A stretch of 64,000 bases of DNA, from contig NZ_FXAX01000003.1 of NCBI RefSeq assembly GCF_900177805.1, forward strand, positions 1 through 64,000. Reading direction: 5' to 3'. Source of the stretch: Fibrobacter sp. UWB13 (lineage in GTDB: Bacteria; Fibrobacterota; Fibrobacteria; Fibrobacterales; Fibrobacteraceae). The notes below the pieces were generated by a model. It made no database searches, was not told the DNA's origin, and saw only the letters and a list, made by a program, of their open reading frames with translations. Shown in pieces: positions 16,707 to 46,436 of this stretch. Within the stretch, counting starts at the first letter, position 1. Every line of letters starts with the position of its first letter. The position numbers and the translations under genes are program-made.

Positions 16707-18995
16707 ATGAGTATAAAATCAACGGTATTTAAGGCACTCGCTTTTACATTCGCCGCATCAACATTTTCTTTTGCGGGTGTAGGCATGGCCGATGGAGCTA
16801 CCAAATTTTTAGGCAACACCACTACCTTTGGCGAAATCCCTGACGACTTTGGAACTTACTGGAACCAGATTACTGCCGAGAACGAGTGCGTTTGGGGCCA
16901 TGTCGAAAAAACGCGTGGCGAATACGACTGGACGGGTTGCGACCTCGCCTATAACTGGGCAAAAAAGAATCATGCGCATTTTACGTTCCACACCCTGTTG
17001 TGGGGATCGCAAAACCCGCAGTGGTTACCTAGACTCGACGTTGACGAAACCAAGAAAGCATGGACTGATTGGATCGATGCGGTTAAAGAGCATTACCCCG
17101 ACCTCGAAATGATTGAAGTGGTCAATGAGGCTGTCAAATCGGGCAAAAACTACCACTCCAGTTTTACCTCTTCCAAACTGGTTGAGGCTCTCGGCGGCGA
17201 CGATGGCGACTACAAATTTGTGGTGACGGCATTCAAAATGGCGCGTGAGCGTTGGCCGCATGCAATCCTGATTTACAACGACTATAACACAATCTTGTGG
17301 CAAGTGAAAGAAGGGATTGACCTTATCAAGAAAATCAAGGCCCAGGGCGCTCCCGTCGATGCTTACGGGATGCAGTTCCACGAGACAACACAACAAGGGA
17401 CAGGCTATTATTGCCTAAATACATCCTTACTCAAACGCTCCCTTTACGAAGCACACGAACAGACAGGACTCCCCATATATATTACTCAATACGATGTCGG
17501 TTCCATAGACGATGAATTTCAAAAAAAGTGCTACCAAGAACATCTCCCAATCCTGATGGAAACGGATTATGTTGCCGGCATAACGCTTTGGGGATACATT
17601 TATGGCAAAACTTGGCTTTCTTGTAACGGTTTAGAACAAGGTTGTTCCGGCCTTATCAAAGACGGTGTCGAACGAGCGGCATTGACCTGGCTCAAGGAAT
17701 ATTTCAAGAATCCGAACGCCCGTTACGGCCGTGGCCTTGCCGATGGAGCGACCAAGTTCTTCGGGAACATGATTGCCGACAAGCAAGAAATCCCCGAGGA
17801 TTTTCAAACCTACTGGAACCAGGTTTCGCCCGAAAACGCATGCACTTGGACCGTTATTGAAAAAGTGCGTGACGAGTACGACTGGTCTGGCTGCGACCGT
17901 ATCTACTATTGGGCGCAAAAAAACAATGTAAAGTTCAATTTCCGTAGCTTGCTTTGGGGAACCCATACCCCCAGCTGGCTCTACAACCTTGATATAGACG
18001 AAACCAAGAAAGCCGTTGAAAATTGGTTTGACAAAGCCGCTATGCGTTACCCCGCACCTTACATGATCGAGGTGGTAAACGGAGGTTCCCGCGACAGCTA
18101 TGGTCATTATCATTCTGGATTCGGGAGCGGCAATAAAATCATCGAAGCTCTCGGTGGCGACAATGATGACTACAAATTCATAGCCACGGCGTTCAAGATG
18201 GCTCGCAAGCGCTGGCCCAAAGCAATCCTAACTTTGAACGACTACGATGATTACGGCTGGAAAAACAATCAAGGCGCCGAAGTTATCAAAAAAATCCAGG
18301 AGCAGGGCGCACCCGTCGATGCGTACCAAATCATTTTCGCACCCCTCGTCCAAGGCTCCGGCCCGGAAGCGCAATGTTTTAGCACCGAACGCATCCAAAG
18401 CGGCATTCAGGAAATCTACGACAAAATAAAGCTCCCATTGTTTATCACTGAATATAGTGTGGGCACAAGCAACGACAGTCTCCAAAAAGCATGCTACTCC
18501 GAACATATTCCGCTCTTTATGGAATCGGAATACATTGCAGGAATCAACCTTTGGGGATACCTTTACGAAGTTGGAGCAAGCGTATGGGCCGACGAATCAA
18601 ATCCCGGACTTATTAAGGACGGTGTAGACCGCCCTGCAATGACATGGCTCAAGGAATATTTCAACGAGCACTTCTACGACAGCAAGAACATGTGGTATGA
18701 TAAAGGCATCGAGAGACATCCGCTAGATTCGCTTGATTCAATCGCCTTGGAACCGCCGATAGCCATTGACGATAACGGCGGCAAATTCGGCAACAAGATT
18801 CGCTTAGAGCAGAGCACGCTGCAAAATTACGACGTGTTTGACGTGCAAGGCGTACGCTTGGGCAAACTTACGGCATACAGCTTTAGCGATGCATCAACAA
18901 GGCTCAAGTCTGCCAACGTCGTAAAAACCTCGGGAATCTACTTTTTGAGGAGCCGTGCCACCGGCAAGATGCAAAGCGTGAGGGTTGTGAGGTAA
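16707..18995 (+). CDS. Secreted tandem GH10 xylanase-like protein with substituted catalytic residues
   Basis: A 762-residue secreted protein (signal peptide to about SFAG; AGGGG before the ATG) with two GH10 domains, roughly residues 30-335 and 345-655, and a sorting-like tail (about 690-762). Domain 1 keeps the substrate-site motifs FHTLLWGSQNPQW, YNDYN and MQFH and the acid/base Glu141 (VVNEA), but the nucleophile position in the canonical ITELD motif reads ITQYD, placing Gln261 there. Domain 2 has the opposite pattern: nucleophile Glu582 (ITEYS) is present, but the acid/base position reads VVNGG (Gly459), and the His/Gln cleft motifs are lost (FRSLLWGTHTP, IIFAP). Each domain therefore lacks one catalytic glutamate. 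It may be a xylan-binding pseudoenzyme or use another mechanism; the family call is firm, activity doubtful. Confidence 0.88.
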   Translation: MSIKSTVFKALAFTFAASTFSFAGVGMADGATKFLGNTTTFGEIPDDFGTYWNQITAENECVWGHVEKTRGEYDWTGCDLAYNWAKKNHAHFTFHTLLWGSQNPQWLPRLDVDETKKAWTDWIDAVKEHYPDLEMIEVVNEAVKSGKNYHSSFTSSKLVEALGGDDGDYKFVVTAFKMARERWPHAILIYNDYNTILWQVKEGIDLIKKIKAQGAPVDAYGMQFHETTQQGTGYYCLNTSLLKRSLYEAHEQTGLPIYITQYDVGSIDDEFQKKCYQEHLPILMETDYVAGITLWGYIYGKTWLSCNGLEQGCSGLIKDGVERAALTWLKEYFKNPNARYGRGLADGATKFFGNMIADKQEIPEDFQTYWNQVSPENACTWTVIEKVRDEYDWSGCDRIYYWAQKNNVKFNFRSLLWGTHTPSWLYNLDIDETKKAVENWFDKAAMRYPAPYMIEVVNGGSRDSYGHYHSGFGSGNKIIEALGGDNDDYKFIATAFKMARKRWPKAILTLNDYDDYGWKNNQGAEVIKKIQEQGAPVDAYQIIFAPLVQGSGPEAQCFSTERIQSGIQEIYDKIKLPLFITEYSVGTSNDSLQKACYSEHIPLFMESEYIAGINLWGYLYEVGASVWADESNPGLIKDGVDRPAMTWLKEYFNEHFYDSKNMWYDKGIERHPLDSLDSIALEPPIAIDDNGGKFGNKIRLEQSTLQNYDVFDVQGVRLGKLTAYSFSDASTRLKSANVVKTSGIYFLRSRATGKMQSVRVVR

Positions 18996-19039
18996 GGAAG
19001 GGTGACGCAAGACTGCAATGAAAGTTGTCTTCTGCAAAA

Positions 19040-19069
19040 CAGTCATTCCCGCGAAAGCGGGAATGACTG
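19040..19069. repeat. Perfect hairpin of the dispersed repeat type
   Basis: CAGTCATTCCCGC, a short loop, then GCGGGAATGACTG form an almost perfect palindrome downstream of the GH10 gene. The GTCATTCC and GGAATGAC ends match those of other dispersed hairpins in the window. Confidence 0.6.
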
Positions 19070-19080
19070 TTTAAAAACTT

Positions 19081-19120
19081 AAAGCCCTCAGCTGTTTAAT
19101 GCCTAGGGCTCAATTTTTTC
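19081..19120 (+). terminator. Terminator between the GH10 and diadenylate-cyclase-like genes
   Basis: AGCCCT and AGGGCT arms enclose a 16-base loop, followed by CAATTTTTT. A T-rich run on the other strand (TTTAAGTTTTT) means it may also serve the convergent gene at 19142. Confidence 0.6.
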
Positions 19121-19141
19121 TGTCTAAACAAACTGCAAAAT

Positions 19142-20914
19142 TTATTCTAAATAAGATTCATCGAATTTGGGATCCGGTTTCACATCATCACGAGCAATAT
19201 ACAGACGTGTAAAATTATTTTTCTTTATAAAGTCTTCGGATTCATGTCTTTTCTTATTGATCTCATCACATTGATTTTGCGACAGATAAAAACTTAATTC
19301 ATATAATCGATCCCTAGCCTTATAATACTTATTTAGATCAAATTCGTCATTCAACGGAAAATTTTTATACTCTTCAACCAACCGCACAATATCGTTCTTT
19401 TTCAAAATTGGACGCAATTTGGGGATAATATCAACCATTCCATCTTCGGAAATGATAACGACAACAACTTTTTCGTTTCGACTTCTTCTATAATCACAAT
19501 AACGAACAGAACTATTATATCTAGAACCCCGTTCTGGATTTCCGTTGTCATTTGCAATTCCATCAAGAATCGTTCCTATTGAGTAGCAAATACAATTGGT
19601 ATCAACAAGAACGGCTCCATCAATAGAAGATAACTTTTTAACGTTATCCGGCGTAAGGGCCATTGGCACTATGGAAATACTTTGATTTTTCAAACGTTTG
19701 GCTTCGTCCATTGCATGGTCACTTACAACTAAAATTCCTCCTTTATGTTCAAGAACTAATGTATTTATGCAATGATACAATTCAGACAATTTTTTCTCTG
19801 ATAAATCATTGAATATTCTCTTTGTTCTTGAATTAAATTCTTCTTGTGAAAAAACAGCCTTAGGCAAATAAGGATTTCCGTATTTTGACAGCAAAAGTTT
19901 TTTTCTATCGTGTATTAATTCCCATTGATAATGTCCAGGAATATTTATTTGGAACAAATCCTCATTTGTAGGAATATATTCGCCTATTAGTCGCCCTATT
20001 CCATAAACATTCACCGCATCACATAACAAGCACAAATCATCGTTGGTCAGTTCAAGTAGTTTTCGAATAAGTCTAGGTCTGCGAATGGAGTAACCTTGTT
20101 CAAATTCTATTTCTACCCGGATATTGGAATGATTTTTTCGCGCAACAATTATCTTTCCACAAGCATCTGAGGATTCATACTTTAAAGAAGAAATTGTATT
20201 TAACGAATCAAAAAGTCCATAACTTTCAGCAACATTATCACCCTTGATGGACACTGCCCCCAAAAAATTATTCCCAGCTTGTTTTATAAGACTACTAATA
20301 TCAACAGAACTTAAATCCCATCCATTACTATTTCCATCAACAAGACATTTTTGGGCTTCAGAAAAAAACAAAGGAACAGCTGAATCAACTATTGATTTTG
20401 AAATTCTAAATCGGCTATATGAAGTTAGATTTAATTTATAAAAGGAATCATATTCCTTTTTATTCAATTGCAGTACAAGGGAAACATTATATTTTTCTAT
20501 TGGAACCGCAGTAGATACAAATGTCAACACATCCCTATTAATCGCAGATTTTTTTTCAATACATTTTTTTATAGCGTCTCGTAATGCATGTACTTTTATA
20601 GCGCGCTGATGCGATTCTTGTAAACCTGGGTGATCATAAAATGTGTAATTTTCTGGAGAGACATGTTGCAGTTGTACCGTAAGGTCGTCAACATCATTAA
20701 AATCCTCTTGTTTATAAAAAGTTTCTTCCTGCTGAATACAAACTTTGTCATTATCATTTTTTCCAGGCAACAAAGTCCCAATAATAAAAACCTGCTTAAA
20801 AATTCCAGGTAATATTACATTGAAGTAGTTTTCAGCAAAGTGCTTCAAATTGAAATAATAAAGATCCTGATACCCCCACATAAACTGATCTATTGTTCTT
20901 TGATCCATACTCAT
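19142..20914 (-). CDS. Stand-alone DisA_N/DAC-domain protein, predicted diadenylate cyclase
   Basis: A 590-residue cytoplasmic protein whose C-terminal part (about residues 395-520) matches the diadenylate cyclase (DAC, DisA_N) fold: GGILVVSD; SSIDGAVLVD with the catalytic Asp432 of the DGA motif; then GSRYNSSVRY in place of the classical GTRHRAA (Tyr466 for His); and VVVIISEDGMV in place of IIVSEETG. No DNA-binding DisA domain and no membrane helices are present. The first 390 residues match no family I recognise with certainty; comparative genomics describes families joining unknown sensor domains (DACNx) to DAC in conflict-type settings, which this resembles. It is AT-rich relative to its neighbours, suggesting transfer. 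Predicted to make c-di-AMP; the RHR substitution leaves activity open. Confidence 0.75.
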   Translation of the reverse strand: MSMDQRTIDQFMWGYQDLYYFNLKHFAENYFNVILPGIFKQVFIIGTLLPGKNDNDKVCIQQEETFYKQEDFNDVDDLTVQLQHVSPENYTFYDHPGLQESHQRAIKVHALRDAIKKCIEKKSAINRDVLTFVSTAVPIEKYNVSLVLQLNKKEYDSFYKLNLTSYSRFRISKSIVDSAVPLFFSEAQKCLVDGNSNGWDLSSVDISSLIKQAGNNFLGAVSIKGDNVAESYGLFDSLNTISSLKYESSDACGKIIVARKNHSNIRVEIEFEQGYSIRRPRLIRKLLELTNDDLCLLCDAVNVYGIGRLIGEYIPTNEDLFQINIPGHYQWELIHDRKKLLLSKYGNPYLPKAVFSQEEFNSRTKRIFNDLSEKKLSELYHCINTLVLEHKGGILVVSDHAMDEAKRLKNQSISIVPMALTPDNVKKLSSIDGAVLVDTNCICYSIGTILDGIANDNGNPERGSRYNSSVRYCDYRRSRNEKVVVVIISEDGMVDIIPKLRPILKKNDIVRLVEEYKNFPLNDEFDLNKYYKARDRLYELSFYLSQNQCDEINKKRHESEDFIKKNNFTRLYIARDDVKPDPKFDESYLE

Positions 20915-21189
20915 ACTAATAATCTCCTTTTATAAATTCTATGCAGAAGGTCTTACTCTGAGATCAAATTTATAAAATATAAAAAAGTTAAAAAAACAAT
21001 AGAATATATTCGCAAACATAACCCTATTATATCTTTCATAACAGGATTACACAAAAAAACATATATCATAAGTACAACAAAAAAGTTGTCGCTTTTTAAA
21101 GCAACAACTTCAACAAAAAAAGTCCAACAAAAACAATATGAACTCATTTTAGCTATAAATTCATAACAACTAACAACAAATAAGCCAAA
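20915..21189. other. AT-rich intergenic stretch
   Basis: No gene with coding character is seen. It holds the terminator of the secreted Trp-repeat gene and the presumed promoter of the DAC gene, but no clear -35/-10 pair could be picked out. Confidence 0.5.
21076..21110 (-). terminator. Terminator of the Trp-repeat secreted protein gene
   Basis: On the minus strand AAGTTGTTGC pairs with GCGACAACTT around an 8-base loop, followed by TTTTTTG. Confidence 0.65.
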
Positions 21190-22722
21190 CTATTCCTTAA
21201 TATAAATAGCCTCTAAACTAGGAAGTATCGTTTCCACTCCAAGTCCATTCTTATACGAAGTAGCTCCATTAGAATAATAGAAGCCCCAAATCGAGCTATT
21301 AACAGGAATAGATTTTTTCGACTTAACAAGAACTGGTGCATCATTTTCATTCACGAAATACGCTTCATTTCGACTTTTTAATTTTGAGAAATATAAAACT
21401 CCCACAAAGCATTTGCCCTTTGTATCATAAGGATTTTCATTATTAATATAAGACACCAACTTTAGGGACTCCTTTAATTTTTTCACCGATGAAAAACTGC
21501 ATTTTTGACGAACTGATTTAAAGATAGACTGAGCCTGTTGCATTGAAATGTCATACATAGTAAATAATTGGCATTCTATTGCACTAAAACCATTTTTTCT
21601 CCATTTATTAGCCTCTTTAGGGTCTATATAAATGTCCCCAATTATCCAAGCTTCATCTTTTTCAACATTAAAGCCATTCTTTTGCCATTCTGCCGCCTTT
21701 TCTGGTTCAATTTTTAAAGATTTCCATTTTACAGCTTCGTTTCGACCAATATTCACATTTCTCCATTTTTTTATTTCATCTAAAGTCATCTGTGAACCAA
21801 CCCATTCTTTCAGTTCATCAAAGGGAATTCCTGAATTCATACACATAATGGCCAACTCAGTATGTTTCCCAATTTGCATCCACTTTTTAGCTTCTTCGAA
21901 CTCAACATTTTCATTCAACCATGCTTTTATCTCTTCACATGATTCTGAAATTTCAGACCATTTGAATAAATTTTCATCTGAAACACTACATTTTAACCAA
22001 TTATTTAAATCGTATTTAAATTTACCACTAGAAAGAAATTTCATCCTATTACTATTCTTCTGCAAATCATCAAATGTAATACCATCAAATTTAAAGTTTT
22101 GAGCTTGTATATAGCTATAGCCACCTTTATACCAATCAATCATTTCTTTTGCACTAAATTCCTGTTTATCATTATATCTCATTTTTTTCCTGTCTCTGGT
22201 TCCTGCATTCCAACTTATTGCAGAATCCAAAGGAATTTGATTCTTCATAAACAAATCAATTTCTTCACGATTATAATACCCCTGTTTTTTCCACTTAACA
22301 ATTTCCTTATAAAACTCAAATTGTTCATTTATATTTTCTATTCGTTTCTTCAATTTTGAGGAACCAACCTTTGTTACACTAAGACCATCATAGTAAAGTT
22401 TATAAGTCCATTCACCAATTTTATAACCATCTCCAGGACAATAAGAAGGTCCACACGCAGCTACTTTTTTAAAAAATTCTTCTGCAGTAGCTATATAGCT
22501 ACATGCATTTTGAATATTATTTATTATTACCATTCCTTCTTTTGATTTTTCCGAACTTAAACGAAATGACAACTGTTCACTTTCTTCTTTTATCATTTTA
22601 CGAGCAGATTCACAATCACCATCCGCAACTAAATCATACGCCTGCATTACAGAATATTCGGAAGCAAAAGAAAAAACAGAAGCAAGAGCAATTAATTCCG
22701 TCATCTTGAAGAAAACTGACAT
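21190..22722 (-). CDS. Secreted protein with short Trp/Gly helical repeats, unknown function
   Basis: A 510-residue protein with an N-terminal signal peptide ending near FSFASE. From about residue 140 to 390 it carries degenerate repeats of roughly 18 residues of the type W-x3-G-(F/I)-x4-E-A-x2-W: examples are WKKQGY, WYKGGYSYIQAQNF, WMQIGKHTELA, WRNVNIGRNEAVKW, WQKNGF and WRKNGFSAIEC. These suggest a superhelical scaffold. The last 110 residues look like a separate beta domain. No enzyme motif is visible. The coding sequence is markedly AT-rich like the DAC gene downstream; a terminator lies between the two. A candidate non-coding RNA lies directly upstream and may act as its leader. Not recognised as a known family. 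Confidence 0.7.
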   Translation of the reverse strand: MSVFFKMTELIALASVFSFASEYSVMQAYDLVADGDCESARKMIKEESEQLSFRLSSEKSKEGMVIINNIQNACSYIATAEEFFKKVAACGPSYCPGDGYKIGEWTYKLYYDGLSVTKVGSSKLKKRIENINEQFEFYKEIVKWKKQGYYNREEIDLFMKNQIPLDSAISWNAGTRDRKKMRYNDKQEFSAKEMIDWYKGGYSYIQAQNFKFDGITFDDLQKNSNRMKFLSSGKFKYDLNNWLKCSVSDENLFKWSEISESCEEIKAWLNENVEFEEAKKWMQIGKHTELAIMCMNSGIPFDELKEWVGSQMTLDEIKKWRNVNIGRNEAVKWKSLKIEPEKAAEWQKNGFNVEKDEAWIIGDIYIDPKEANKWRKNGFSAIECQLFTMYDISMQQAQSIFKSVRQKCSFSSVKKLKESLKLVSYINNENPYDTKGKCFVGVLYFSKLKSRNEAYFVNENDAPVLVKSKKSIPVNSSIWGFYYSNGATSYKNGLGVETILPSLEAIYIKE

Positions 22723-22800
22723 ATTCCCTCTCCTTAGGTCTTCATAAATTCAGCCAGTACATTTGGCACTTGCTTTATTCCCAAAAGAGATTCAGGCAAC

Positions 22801-22942
22801 AAAAAAGGGCGTGAATCGGGCTCATTGCATTCTGAGGTTCCACTACGACCCTACACTCAATAAGCGCGAACGACCCACGCCCCAATTGGGACGTGAGCGT
22901 TTGCCAACTTATCCCCAGTGTTCGTGAATTTAGTGGATTCCA
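22801..22942 (-). ncRNA. Candidate structured small RNA, rod-like
   Basis: About 140 bases between a strong promoter and a T6 tract. From the expected start GGAATCCAC the RNA can fold into one long rod. GG..UCCAC pairs with GUGGA.CC; ACACT pairs with AGUGU; AUAAG pairs with CUUAU; GCAAACG pairs with CGUUCGC (one mismatch); and CUCACGUCCC pairs with GGGGCGUGGG around a UU-type tetraloop AAUU. At the 3' end CACGCCC can alternatively pair with GGGGCGUG before the T6 tract, giving a terminator that competes with the apical stem. Rod shape with internal loops recalls 6S RNA, but no conserved 6S element was confirmed. It could instead be an attenuator leader for the gene at 22722. Confidence 0.5.
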
Positions 22943-22948
22943 GAATGG

Positions 22949-22977
22949 AGAATAAGAGCAAATGCTCCAAATGTCAA
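22949..22977 (-). promoter_or_regulatory. Sigma70-type promoter of the candidate RNA
   Basis: On the minus strand TTGACA is followed by exactly 17 bases and TATTCT. The expected start is a G near 22941, which is the first base of the paired 5' end of the candidate RNA. Confidence 0.65.
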
Positions 22978-23188
22978 TACGGCATTAAACTTATAAAGCA
23001 CCTCGTTATATCGTTTCCGATTTAAATATACCTCTATTTTGAGTCAATTTGGGAACTTTCTCTAAAAAACGATCAAAATTCTAAAAAAAACAATGTTTAT
23101 CCGAGAATGGACAATCCAACTTGGAAGGGCTTGGCTTTTGTGTGGGCCAAAAGGTATCTTTAGAAGAGACACCCAACCGAAGTAACAT

Positions 23189-23371
23189 ATGCTTGATATT
23201 TGCAAATGCATAAAACCCGACTCAGATGTCAGTTCTAACATTGACGATGTTATGACCTTTAATCTGCTAAAAATCATTCAACTTTCTGAACGAGACGTTC
23301 AAGACGGGAAAACTGAATCAGCAACATCGGTATTTCAGGAATTAAGGCAGAAATACAACGTCGCAAGATGA
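23189..23371 (+). CDS. Small antitoxin-like protein, possibly truncated
   Basis: A 60-residue acidic protein. Its C-terminal half (SERDVQDGKTESATSVFQELRQKY) resembles the toxin-wrapping tail of many type II antitoxins, where a D-x-x-x-G-(K/R)-x6-V-F-x-E-L pattern is common. The N-terminal half is too short to be a normal DNA-binding domain, so it may be a remnant or a minimal antitoxin. No toxin gene is adjacent on the same strand. An in-frame stop just upstream fixes the start, and a terminator follows 54 bases after the stop, supporting transcription. The ribosome binding site is weak. Confidence 0.4.
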   Translation: MLDICKCIKPDSDVSSNIDDVMTFNLLKIIQLSERDVQDGKTESATSVFQELRQKYNVAR

Positions 23372-23424
23372 TGTTTACAATGTAATTGTATCTCGATTTC
23401 CCCAAAAGATATCTATTGCCAAAA

Positions 23425-23461
23425 GGCGCAGACACAAATGAGGCTGCGTCTTTTTCTTTTT
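23425..23461 (+). terminator. Terminator after the antitoxin-like ORF
   Basis: GGCGCAG and CTGCGTC pair around a 12-base loop, followed by TTTTTCTTTTT. It lies just before the convergent toxin gene's stop. Confidence 0.65.
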
Positions 23462-23480
23462 AGGGCGGGTAAGCCGGGCG

Positions 23481-23762
23481 TTATTTCGAAAACAAATCGG
23501 AATGCGATCCCGTCGCCACAAGCGTTAAGGTCAGAATTCCTTGATTTTTTCTGTAGCACAACGACCAATCAGGACGAATATGGAGCTCTCGCGTACCATG
23601 AAATTCTCCAACTAATTCATGATCATGATATTTAGCATCCAAAGCCTGATCCGTTCGCAGCAATTCAACTACGTCCTTAAGCTCCTGTAACGGGAGCCCC
23701 CTCTTTTGGCAAAGTTTGTACGATTTTTTAAAACGACTAGTCCAAATTACTTCGTATATCAT
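23481..23762 (-). CDS. yafQ: YafQ-family mRNA interferase toxin
   Basis: A 93-residue RelE-superfamily ribosome-dependent endoribonuclease. The family's active-site residues are all visible and in register with E. coli YafQ (His50, His63, Asp67, Trp68, His87, Phe91): His48 in YHDHEL, His61 and Asp65-Trp66 in ELHIRPDW, His87 and Phe91 in SHSDLF. The ATG overlaps the stop of the antitoxin gene by 4 bases, giving translational coupling typical of dinJ-yafQ operons. It is expected to be neutralised by the upstream gene product, and it appears intact. Confidence 0.92.
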   Translation of the reverse strand: MIYEVIWTSRFKKSYKLCQKRGLPLQELKDVVELLRTDQALDAKYHDHELVGEFHGTRELHIRPDWSLCYRKNQGILTLTLVATGSHSDLFSK

Positions 23763-24103
23763 TTGTCAAGATCCGCCCACATTTCGTTCATATCCGTATA
23801 TCGTTTTGTGTTCGGATCAGCCTCTAGGCGTTCCGCTTCGGCAACAGCCTCGCGTAGACCTTTAGGATATTCCGGATATTTCACTTCAAAGGGCAAACCT
23901 CGTTGCAGCACAACTTGGCGCAGGAACATGGATACCGCTTGAGACATGGAAAGGCCTAACCCTTCCAACAATGCTGTCGCCTGATCATTCAAATCAGAAT
24001 CAATGCGGAAATTTTTTGCCACGGTACTCATACCATCAAATATATATCGTTTGTAAAGCATTTGCAAGTATTTGATGGGTTTTATAGCGATATTATTCTT
24101 CAT
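23759..24103 (-). CDS. dinJ: DinJ/RelB-family antitoxin
   Basis: The antitoxin partner of the YafQ-like toxin. The ribbon-helix-helix segment is KNFRIDSDLNDQATALLEGLGLSMSQAVSMFLRQVV, followed by a flexible tail that should wrap the toxin. Two starts are possible. The ATG at 24103 has a strong site AAGGAG seven bases upstream and gives 114 residues; the ATG at 24031 would give the usual DinJ length of about 90 but has no clear ribosome binding site. The longer form adds 24 residues with a basic, hydrophobic character not usual for DinJ. The operon is expected to be autoregulated. Confidence 0.88.
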   Translation of the reverse strand: MKNNIAIKPIKYLQMLYKRYIFDGMSTVAKNFRIDSDLNDQATALLEGLGLSMSQAVSMFLRQVVLQRGLPFEVKYPEYPKGLREAVAEAERLEADPNTKRYTDMNEMWADLDK

Positions 24104-24508: not shown

Positions 24509-27049
24509 ATGAATCAAGAAACACCCGATACTACTCTAGGTTTATCTAACGTCAATCACCTAGAACGACTTTATGACGGCTGGTTCCTCGATTACGCCAG
24601 CTATGTGATTTTGGACCGTGCGGTCCCATATTTTGAAGATGGCCTGAAGCCTGTTCAGCGCCGTATTTTGCATTCCATGTTCGAAAACCACGACGGACGC
24701 TACCAGAAGGTGGCTACGATCGTCGGTCGAACGATGGCCTACCACCCGCATGGCGATGCCTCTATCGGCGATGCACTTGTGGGCCTCGGCCAGAAGAATT
24801 TGCTCATCGACACCCAGGGTAACTGGGGCAACCCCTACACGGGCGACCGCGCTGCAGCCCCCCGTTATATCGAAGGCCGCCTCACGCCGTTCGCTGTCGA
24901 TGTCGTGTTCAACCCCGAAACGACGGAATGGATCCCGAGTTACGATGGCCGTAGTGAAGAACCGGTCACGCTCCCGGTCAAGTTCCCGCTGCTTTTGGCT
25001 CAGGGCGTCGATGGTATCGCCGTCGGTCTCTCGACATCCATCCTCCCCCACAACTTCCGCGAACTCTGCGAGGCTAGCATCGCCTGTTTGCGCGGCAAGA
25101 AGTTTACGCTTTACCCGGACTTTTTCACGGGCGGCATTATCGACGTCACGGACTACAACGATGGTCAACGCGGGGGCAAGGTCAAGGTCCGCGCGAAGAT
25201 TGAAAAGGTCGACAACAAGACGCTCGCCATCCGCGAAATTCCGTACGGCACCACGACCGTGAGCTTGATTGAAAGCATTGTCAAGGCAAACGACAAGGGC
25301 AAAATCAAAATCAAACACGTGGACGACAACACGAGCCAGGGCGTCGAAATCTTGGTGCACTTGCAGCCGGGGACGGACCCGCAGGTGGCCATCGATGCGC
25401 TTTACGCCTTTACGGACTGCGAAAAGTCGCTCTCTCCGTGCACTTGCGTCATTATCGACAAGCACCCGAAATTCGTGGGCGTCTCGGACATCTTGAAGCT
25501 CAACACGGAACACACCGTGAAGCTTTTGGAATGGGAACTCGCCAACGAGCTCAAGCACCTCGAAGACAAGTGGCACATGACCACACTCGAAAAAATATTT
25601 ATCGAGAAGGAAGTCTACGAAGTCATCAAGAAAGCTAAGGACCGTGAACAAATTATCCGTCTCGTTCGCGAAGGCCTCACACCGTACCTCAAGCGTCTGC
25701 ACCGCCAGACCGTTACGGACGAAGAAATCGGCAAGCTCATTGAAATCCCGATCCGCCGTATAAGCCATTACGACCGCGAAAAGGCCGACCAGCTCTTGAA
25801 GGAACTGGAAGAGAGCATTGCAACTTGCAAGTACAACCAGGAACACATTATCGATTACGCCGTGAACCACTTCAAGAACATCTTGAAGAAGTACGGCGAA
25901 GGCAAGGAACGCCGCACGCAGATTGCCGAATTCGGTAAGGTGAACGCCGTGCACGTGGCTCTTGCAAACCAGAAGCTTTATGTGAACCGCAAGGAAGGTT
26001 TCGTGGGCACGGGCATGAAGAAGGAAGAATACCTCTTCGACGTGTCGGAATACGATGACTTGATCGTATTCAAGGCCGACGGTAGCTTCAAGGTCGTGAA
26101 GGTCAGCGACAAGGACTTTGTCGGTAAGGATATTATTCTCGTTGAAAAGTTCAACAAGGACGACGAACGCCATATCTATAACGTCATCCACCAGGATGGC
26201 AAGGACGGCTATGCTTACATCAAGCGCTTCAACGTCGGCGGCGTAACTCGCGACAAGGATTACTACATGGGCAAGAACAAGCCCGGTAGCAAGATTCTTT
26301 ACATGTCGAGCAACATGAACGGCGAAGCCGAAGTCGTTGAAGTCATCTTGAAGCCGCGTCCGCGCATCAAGCTGAACTTTGAAGTGGACTTCAGCGAAGT
26401 CGAAGTCAAGGGCCGTGGCGCTCTCGGCAATATCGTTTCGAAGTACCCGGTCAAAACGGTCAAGAGACTCCGCAAGGGCGTTTCGACACTTGGCGCAAGA
26501 GTGCTTTACTTCGACGCTCCGAGCGGTATCGTCTCGACACAGAAGAAGGGCGATTGCCTCGGTGAATTTGGTGAAAACGACAAGTTGCTCATCATCAAGC
26601 AAGATGGTAGCGCTCGCGTCCACACCATGGCAGACCCGATTCTCGTCGGTTCGAACATCAAGTATCTGCACAAGTACGACCCCGCACAGGTCTTTACGGT
26701 GCTCTACTTCGAAGGCTCGAATTTCAACTACATGGTCAAGCGTTTCAACCTCGAAGGCTGCCCCATGACGACGGAATTCAGCGTGGTCTCCGATCACAAG
26801 GACACGAAGCTCATCGAGCTCTTCGCTACAGATGACGCACGCGAACTGATGGAATACCAAGTCGGTCGCGAAGTCCAGAAGGAAGAACTCGACTTGACGG
26901 AAATTGCGGAAGTCAAGGGCTACAAGGCTCTCGGCAGCAAGTTCACCGCCAAGAAGATCAAGCGCGTGAGCCGCATTTCGCCGGCAGACCCGTTTAGCGA
27001 CGGAAGCGGTGAAAGCGAAGGTTCTAGCGAAGATCCGAGCTTGTTCTAA
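24509..27049 (+). CDS. parC: DNA topoisomerase IV subunit A
   Basis: An 846-residue type IIA topoisomerase A subunit that cuts and religates DNA for chromosome decatenation. The N-terminal winged-helix/tower region contains DGLKPVQRRILHSM, the quinolone-region HGDASIGDAL and the active-site Tyr120 in AAPRYIEGRL. The C-terminal half has degenerate beta-pinwheel blades without a clear GyrA box, and ends in a Ser/Glu/Asp-rich tail. The sequence resembles ParC of Bacteroidota-type organisms rather than GyrA. Unlike many genomes, parE is not adjacent but about 35 kb downstream in the same orientation. The start has only a weak ribosome binding site (CGAG). A strong terminator follows. Confidence 0.9.
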   Translation: MNQETPDTTLGLSNVNHLERLYDGWFLDYASYVILDRAVPYFEDGLKPVQRRILHSMFENHDGRYQKVATIVGRTMAYHPHGDASIGDALVGLGQKNLLIDTQGNWGNPYTGDRAAAPRYIEGRLTPFAVDVVFNPETTEWIPSYDGRSEEPVTLPVKFPLLLAQGVDGIAVGLSTSILPHNFRELCEASIACLRGKKFTLYPDFFTGGIIDVTDYNDGQRGGKVKVRAKIEKVDNKTLAIREIPYGTTTVSLIESIVKANDKGKIKIKHVDDNTSQGVEILVHLQPGTDPQVAIDALYAFTDCEKSLSPCTCVIIDKHPKFVGVSDILKLNTEHTVKLLEWELANELKHLEDKWHMTTLEKIFIEKEVYEVIKKAKDREQIIRLVREGLTPYLKRLHRQTVTDEEIGKLIEIPIRRISHYDREKADQLLKELEESIATCKYNQEHIIDYAVNHFKNILKKYGEGKERRTQIAEFGKVNAVHVALANQKLYVNRKEGFVGTGMKKEEYLFDVSEYDDLIVFKADGSFKVVKVSDKDFVGKDIILVEKFNKDDERHIYNVIHQDGKDGYAYIKRFNVGGVTRDKDYYMGKNKPGSKILYMSSNMNGEAEVVEVILKPRPRIKLNFEVDFSEVEVKGRGALGNIVSKYPVKTVKRLRKGVSTLGARVLYFDAPSGIVSTQKKGDCLGEFGENDKLLIIKQDGSARVHTMADPILVGSNIKYLHKYDPAQVFTVLYFEGSNFNYMVKRFNLEGCPMTTEFSVVSDHKDTKLIELFATDDARELMEYQVGREVQKEELDLTEIAEVKGYKALGSKFTAKKIKRVSRISPADPFSDGSGESEGSSEDPSLF

Positions 27050-36411: not shown

Positions 36412-37356
36412 TTACGATTGGCCGAGAGAAGCCTTAATGGCAAGAACATCTGCTTCAGAAAGCTCAGTAAAATCGATAATTTTATCAATAGGTTCATTTT
36501 TCAACAGCATTTTTTCTGCAATTTTGCGCGCTTTTAGAATGCCTCCCTGACGCAAGCCGCTATCAACAGCCGCTTTATGAATTGCGTATTCATCCCACTT
36601 GGCTTTCTGTGCTTCGTCAATCATCTTCTGTTCCTCTTTCGATAATTTAGCCAATTTCGCCGTCGAAAACAAGAGTTCGAACACCGTGTTCACATACTGC
36701 TTAGGCATCTGCGTCATGTTTTTCATGTTCTTGAGAGCGTAAAGTCCCTTGTCAAGCGTCGTTTCTAGTTCGTCCAAAGGCTTGTTGAACTTAGGAAGTT
36801 CTACAAACGCAAAATTGAGAGCATCGCTGATGCTAGCGCCGTTGACTTCGCGAAGTTTTGCCCGACGGATGTAGCGGTCGTCGGCAAACACATTGAATTC
36901 CATGAACACTACCGTAACGACAGGGCTCAATTCGTAATTGTACTTTTTGCCGCGTTGCCCCTGAGCAATGATTGTCTGCGAGGCGTAATAAATCGAGCGA
37001 TTGACTATGTTTTCCTGAAAAAGAATCTGAACCTCGATGATGAACCTACGCTGTGCCGAATCGATGCAATGCAAGTCGAAAACGGAAGTCCGATTTTCGT
37101 TCGAACCGTCACTGTATTCCTTGTTTCGGGACTGCACATCAACAATCGGAGATGCTATTTCGCCTTCAAGTACGGCGTTCAAAAGCGCAATCAAACAGAC
37201 CTTATTCTGCGTGTCAGGATTGAACGCCTTCTTGAAAGTTCTGTCGAGAAGAAGATCCGCGAAGACGCCAGCCCCTTTGAATTCTTCGAAAGTCTTAGCT
37301 TCGCCAATCATTTCACCATGGTTATTTTTTATTTCGACCACAATATTATTTTCCAT
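36412..37356 (-). CDS. PD-(D/E)XK nuclease family transposase-like protein (Rpn/PDDEXK_2)
   Basis: A 314-residue protein of the PDDEXK_2 (PF12784) group, related to Rpn recombination-promoting nucleases. DRTFKKAFN near the N-terminus, then the nuclease core FDLHCIDSAQRRFIIEVQ (acidic strand end plus E-x-Q) and RSIYYASQTIIAQGQRGKKYNYELSPVVTVVFMEF. The C-terminal part is helical with a KLSKEEQKMIDEAQKAKWDEYA segment. It is very similar to the protein at 45507, and shares upstream DNA with it and with the gene at the left edge. These genes usually occur as multicopy families; mobility has not been shown here. No terminal inverted repeats are seen. Confidence 0.88.
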   Translation of the reverse strand: MENNIVVEIKNNHGEMIGEAKTFEEFKGAGVFADLLLDRTFKKAFNPDTQNKVCLIALLNAVLEGEIASPIVDVQSRNKEYSDGSNENRTSVFDLHCIDSAQRRFIIEVQILFQENIVNRSIYYASQTIIAQGQRGKKYNYELSPVVTVVFMEFNVFADDRYIRRAKLREVNGASISDALNFAFVELPKFNKPLDELETTLDKGLYALKNMKNMTQMPKQYVNTVFELLFSTAKLAKLSKEEQKMIDEAQKAKWDEYAIHKAAVDSGLRQGGILKARKIAEKMLLKNEPIDKIIDFTELSEADVLAIKASLGQS

Positions 37357-45506: not shown

Positions 45507-46436
45507 TTACTTTTGATCGATTTCCGCTTTAATCGCTAAGACATCAGCTTCAGAAAGCTTTGAAACGCGTACGACCTTTTCTACAGAATCACCTTCAATA
45601 AGCAAATCTTTTGCCACTTCGCGAGCCTTTTGATTACGGCCTCGATCAAGGGCGGCCTTGTTGATTGCATATTCATCCCATTTGGCTTTCTGCGCTTCGT
45701 CAATCATTTTCTGTTCCTCTTTCGATAATTTAGCCAAAAACGCACTCGAAAACAAGAGCTCAAACGCCGTATTGGCATACAGCTTGGGCATCTGCGTCAT
45801 GTTTTTCATGTTCTTAAGCGCGTAAAGCCCCCTGTCTAGCGTTGTTTCAAGCTGGTCCAGAGGTTTGTTGAACTTCGGGAGTTCCACAAATGCGAATGAA
45901 AGAACTTCGCTAACGCTAGCCCCATTGATTTCACGGAGCTTGGCTCGGCGGATGTAGCGGTCATCGACAAATACGTTGAATTCCATAAAAACTACTGTAA
46001 CAACCGGCTTCAGCTCGTAATTGTACTTTTGTCCACGCTCGCCCTGCGCAATGACCGTCTGCGATGCGTAATAAATCGCTCGGTTGACAATGTTTTCTTG
46101 CATGAGGAGCTGCACTTCGATGATAAAGCGTCGTTGCGCCGAATCGATGCAGTACAAGTCAAAGACTGTTGTCCGGTTTTCGTTCGACCCGTCATTGAAT
46201 TCCTTGTCACGGGACTGTACATCCACAATTGGCGATGATATTTCTCCTTCAAGCACAGCATTCAAGAGCGCAATCAGACAAACCTTATTCTTGGTATCAG
46301 GATTGAAGGCTTTCTTGAAAGTCCTGTCCGTAAGAAGGTCAGCAAAGACACCTGCTCCTTTGTATTCCTCATAAGTTCTAGCCTCGCTAATAGTTTTACC
46401 CCAATGGGCTACAGCAATGTTATTATTGTTTTCCAT
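45507..46436 (-). CDS. PD-(D/E)XK nuclease family transposase-like protein, paralogue
   Basis: A 309-residue close paralogue of the protein at 36412: most of the first 270 residues align position by position, including DRTFKKAFNPDTKNKVC, the core FDLYCIDSAQRRFIIEVQ and RAIYYASQTVIAQGERGQKYNYEL. The N-terminal 20 residues and the C-terminal tail (KDLLIEGDSVEKVVRVSKLSEADVLAIKAEI) differ more. The upstream leader is also conserved, so the duplication included regulatory DNA. Role as for the paralogue: probable nuclease involved in recombination or genome conflict, unproven. Confidence 0.88.
   Translation of the reverse strand: MENNNNIAVAHWGKTISEARTYEEYKGAGVFADLLTDRTFKKAFNPDTKNKVCLIALLNAVLEGEISSPIVDVQSRDKEFNDGSNENRTTVFDLYCIDSAQRRFIIEVQLLMQENIVNRAIYYASQTVIAQGERGQKYNYELKPVVTVVFMEFNVFVDDRYIRRAKLREINGASVSEVLSFAFVELPKFNKPLDQLETTLDRGLYALKNMKNMTQMPKLYANTAFELLFSSAFLAKLSKEEQKMIDEAQKAKWDEYAINKAALDRGRNQKAREVAKDLLIEGDSVEKVVRVSKLSEADVLAIKAEIDQK

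Follow-up and report, generated by a model that had tools for sequence, protein, structure and literature searches.

A 64,000-nucleotide stretch of Fibrobacter sp. UWB13 DNA (hereafter the window) encodes a protein with a diadenylate cyclase (DAC) domain that is neither DisA nor CdaA, raising the question of what a cyclase of this kind does in its host. The earlier note on this DNA had supposed an uncharacterised messenger or conflict system. The kind of protein was correctly recognised there, but the family is already known as the DAC of the DS-2 system (NF053872; DeWeirdt et al. 2026, PMC13092281). The gene was acquired horizontally and belongs, as a diverged copy that stands alone, to the DACNG-DACNH-DAC (DS2_3) family of anti-phage cyclases; we propose, with a probability of about 0.6, that its job is infection-triggered dinucleotide synthesis. 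The features of the locus are collected in Table 1.

Table 1. Features of the DAC locus, in window coordinates.
Feature	Position	Strand	Evidence
DACNG-DACNH-DAC protein, 590 aa (DS2_3-like cyclase)	19142..20914	-	ORF, Pfam, NCBIfam, AlphaFold, Foldseek
DACNG putative sensor domain, residues 12-218	20261..20881	-	Pfam 1.6e-33, 116.9 bits
DACNH putative sensor domain, residues 232-335	19910..20221	-	Pfam 2.1e-27, 95.5 bits
DAC catalytic domain, residues 390-497	19424..19747	-	Pfam, hhalign to CdaA, Foldseek, residue invariance
Ribosome-binding site AAAGGAG, upstream of DAC ATG	20915..20960	-	
Predicted intrinsic terminator, 13-bp stem and T-rich tail, between secreted-protein and DAC genes	21082..21111	-	
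AT-rich inserted segment (DAC and secreted protein), 4.5-kb	18996..23479	.	GC, comparison with sister genome G102

The DAC reading frame is uninterrupted, and its product carries the DACNG, DACNH, and DAC domains in that order, every one above the Pfam gathering score (for DAC, 27.9 bits where 27 are required). Residues 1-390, described earlier as unlike anything recognised, therefore consist largely of two named putative sensor domains; the profile search that the earlier note proposed for this region matched both DACNG and DACNH. Its statement that the protein has neither the DNA-binding domain of DisA nor the helices of CdaA was borne out: Pfam detected neither the C-terminal HhH domain of DisA nor the N-terminal domain of CdaA, and in the predicted structure mixed alpha/beta domains form the N-terminus. 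The sole NCBIfam family matched was NF053872, "DS2_3 anti-phage protein" (1-576 of 576, 530 bits, E 5.8e-159). Since the equivalog cut-off of this family is 630 bits, the window protein is a relative of DS2_3 rather than an equivalog. All 58 of the family members tested also matched NF053872, and one genome scan yielded 358 relatives, placing the family match far beyond chance. None of the PADLOC models matched the window DAC.

Structure prediction, which the earlier note had named as a check, revealed a DAC fold of the DisA/CdaA type. The AlphaFold model, calculated with 58 homologues in the input, has a mean pLDDT of 89.5, and its best 18 Foldseek matches in the PDB are all DisA, CdaA, or DacA (top E 2e-5). 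The N-terminal DACNG domain modelled alone gave a pTM of 0.87, and Foldseek found no solved PDB fold resembling it. No viral structure matched the whole model, and no sequence relative of the protein was found in the PDB, even by profile search.

Alignment-based scans of both the genome and the viral collections found relatives of the protein; single-sequence scans of the same collections found none. The set analysed comprised the best 80 of the 358 relatives from the profile scan together with plasmid and E. coli loci and five viral contigs. In the resulting tree the window protein branches deeply and by itself, with at most 36% identity to any relative. Stand-alone copies occur in archaea, Cyanobacteria, Planctomycetota, and Bacteroidota, some of them beside Mrr-type nucleases; plasmids and viral contigs also carry relatives. 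One of the viral-contig proteins (L118:7454-10051) has 865 aa, with DACNH and DAC domains and a TPR-like C-terminal extension. A Citrobacter plasmid carries an operon with 84% identity to the E. coli DS-2 genes, which bear an anti-phage annotation in RefSeq. In E. coli strain 361 (L009), the DS-2 genes adjoin a type II CBASS operon and a gene pair with Cap15-like and mCpol domains. A class-wide search around Spirosoma found the family in only 4 of 395 genomes, and it was found in none of the 167 other Fibrobacterota genomes searched.

The surroundings of the gene point to mobility. It had been placed in AT-rich DNA, and the values agree, with a GC content of 32.9% in the gene and 33.6% in the island against 49.2% in the rest of the window. 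A sister genome (G102) has 33 bp in place of the inserted segment. The stretch that separates the gene with its end at 18995 from the topoisomerase gene, which starts at 24509, differs among the relatives examined; at this spot, G130 carries a YhcG/DUF1016 PDDEXK nuclease gene and a SIR2-like gene (L124:3397-9356). The spot upstream of the topoisomerase gene is thus variable, with defence-type cargo. The toxin-antitoxin pair reported earlier proved to be RelB/YafQ (23481-24103); because the sister genome keeps this pair without the DAC island, it is a separate resident of the variable spot. The RelB/YafQ segment is 94.5% identical in the sister genome, and different pairs resembling YafQ/RelB occupy the same spot in several other relatives. 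An ORF of 60 aa without a Pfam match lies at 23189-23371; L124 and L127 have ORFs like it at the corresponding spot. Elsewhere in the window, two similar ORFs (36412-37356 and 45507-46436) carry GVFADLLxDRTFKKAFNPDT near their starts and possibly belong to a nuclease-type transposase family. An Rfam search of the island found no RNA.

The explanation that survives best beside ours is that the gene encodes a second c-di-AMP synthase, regulated by a ligand, whose task is physiological, such as the response to osmotic or cell-wall stress, and not defence. The DAC fold otherwise serves physiology, and Hymenobacter and Pedobacter have conserved chromosomal copies with constant neighbours; accordingly, defence need not be the role of the whole family, and some members may have another. 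For the window gene, however, we consider a physiological role unlikely, because the gene lies on a mobile, sporadic island, the host genome already has one canonical CdaA, and the closest full-length relative to have been characterised is an anti-phage protein.

A different explanation is that the locus once belonged to a CBASS or DS-2 type system, lost its CD-NTase and effector, and now persists as functionless cargo. Neither a patatin phospholipase nor a CD-NTase was found beside the window DAC, and the window contains no CBASS gene. The CD-NTase models SMODS, PDLC00788, and DncV-like, all three of which detected their positive controls, found nothing in the whole host genome, and neither did the Cap15 model. 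An association of the DAC family with CBASS had been noted by Galperin 2023, as cited in PMC13092281. On the family tree this association changed at least 7 times. Among the 86 loci with a usable DAC ORF, on which the partner counts rest (the best 80 of 358 plus the added loci), a CD-NTase lies near the DAC in 16, which are scattered over the tree; the remaining loci are without one. The partners at the CD-NTase loci are patatin, Cap15, or Cap2/Cap3. In one CBASS locus, a protein of 147 aa with a marginal DAC-domain match (L014:9063-9503, E 0.009) lies between Cap15 and JAB (Cap3-like) genes. The absence of partners and the repeated changes of association would both fit a leftover. In contrast, the ORF is intact and retains all of the family-invariant residues despite great divergence, and many intact stand-alone relatives exist across many phyla, leaving functionless cargo a quite improbable description of the gene.

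Two of the relatives' loci offer hints that a DAC of this family can serve an effector without a CD-NTase. In Methylomonas (L069, 9309-11752), a gene for the cyclic-dinucleotide-receptor effector Cap15 precedes the gene of a DACNG-family DAC by 5 bp. No CD-NTase was found at this locus, but the presence of one on another contig weakens the case. In Spirosoma (L024, 3598-6429), the gene for a TIR-STING effector and that for a DACNG-family DAC share a strand, the former about 124 bp upstream of the latter, and a separate CBASS operon, consisting of a CD-NTase and its neighbours, lies on the opposite strand. A bacterial STING can bind c-di-AMP, although without activation in the protein tested (PMC10739871). 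These arrangements hint at, rather than prove, such a relationship.

The active site bears on whether the protein is a cyclase at all. The motifs described in the earlier note are present in the ORF, as IDGAV, ISEDG, and, for the variant motif, RGSRYNSS. The core positions are DGA 432-434, RGSRYN 462-467, and SED 489-491, and profile alignment (hhalign) to the CdaA of the host pairs DGA with DGA, GSRYNSS with GMRHRAA, and SED with SEE. Across 87 aligned rows, including the window protein, D432, G433, R462, G463, R465, N467, S489, and D491 are unchanged; position 464 is A or S, and Y or F, seldom L, occupies position 466. The motif RG[S/A]R[Y/F/L]N is therefore invariant in the 87 aligned members, indicating that GSRYNSS is a strict family signature and not degeneration or a local oddity. 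The canonical RHR triad is RYN in the window protein, and the histidine and the second arginine are missing throughout the family. This loss matters in view of the M. tuberculosis enzyme DacA, in which replacement of RHR with AAA abolishes ATP binding and activity (PMC3328451). The same result could be taken to mean that the domain is a catalytically dead DAC fold acting solely as a nucleotide-binding sensor. Such a role appears highly unlikely: R465, N467, and the DG and SxD motifs are invariant, the family holds a strict alternative motif without drift, and mutation of either of two predicted catalytic residues of the DAC removed phage defence by DS-2 in E. coli (PMC13092281). To judge from the alignment, the strict conservation of the arginine and the asparagine argues for altered rather than lost chemistry.

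The gene for a secreted protein (21190-22722) shares the strand and the AT-rich segment with the DAC gene. As a partner of the DAC, the secreted protein was rejected. The predicted terminator between the two genes is strong and argues for their separate transcription, the best homologue of the secreted protein (43%) lies in a genome without the DAC family (G080), and no recurrent neighbour of the DAC relatives is a protein like it. A two-gene conflict module joining the DAC to this protein or to the toxin-antitoxin pair, which persists in the sister genome without the DAC, is hence barely credible.

We return to the stand-alone anti-phage-family cyclase, for which we infer a defence role in Fibrobacter sp. 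UWB13. In the mechanism that we envisage, the two N-terminal domains would sense a cue of infection, allowing the C-terminal DAC domains to pair and to condense two nucleotides, most likely two ATP. The product would be c-di-AMP or a closely related dinucleotide, which may either turn on a putative cyclic-dinucleotide-responsive effector or swamp the c-di-AMP circuitry of the cell itself, and the infected cell would stop growing.

DS-2 had been interpreted as a CBASS system that contains two cyclases of different kinds. The window protein and dozens of its relatives present a three-domain DAC with a strict non-canonical motif, often without a nearby CD-NTase. A wider and more tentative proposal is that stand-alone DACNG-DACNH-DAC proteins might be complete infection-triggered signal synthases that need no CD-NTase and would amount to a counterpart of CBASS built on the DAC, in which the altered RG[SA]R[YFL]N site would supply effectors encoded by separate genes with c-di-AMP or an unlisted nucleotide. 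The Methylomonas and Spirosoma loci lend this proposal support. Several questions become testable as a result: whether the DAC makes the alarm signal itself, what its product is, and whether immunity draws on the same molecule in bacteria that have an ordinary c-di-AMP system.

Comparison with known systems places the window protein among them as follows. With the housekeeping cyclases CdaA and DisA it has the DAC fold in common, and the DGA and SE(D) motifs align; it differs in having putative sensor domains at the N-terminus and neither the TM domain of CdaA nor an HhH domain. Of the canonical DAC motifs, DGA is kept, whereas GTRHRAA is replaced by GSRYNSS, in which R-x-N is invariant family-wide. 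Its architecture is qualitatively the same as the DAC architectures of Pfam DACNG (PF21752) and DACNH (PF21750), with a diverged sequence. CBASS differs in its cyclase, since that of the window locus is a DAC and not a CD-NTase; a CD-NTase is found close to approximately 19% of the DAC relatives (best 80 of 358 plus the added loci), together with patatin or Cap15 effectors or Cap2/Cap3. The closest counterpart is the DAC of DS-2, a system composed of a phospholipase, a cGAS-like synthase, and a DAC (DeWeirdt et al. 2026, PMC13092281). The window protein matches this DAC over the full length of its three domains and shares the DGA, RG[SA]R[YFL]N, and SxD motifs, but it comes from Fibrobacterota, falls under the equivalog cut-off, and is 27% identical to the Citrobacter copy. 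Its gene has no adjacent patatin phospholipase or CD-NTase, and none of the tested CD-NTase models matched in the genome. Because these partner genes are absent, the locus is not a DS-2 or CBASS locus, but the chemistry of its protein is probably of the same kind as that of the DS-2 DAC.
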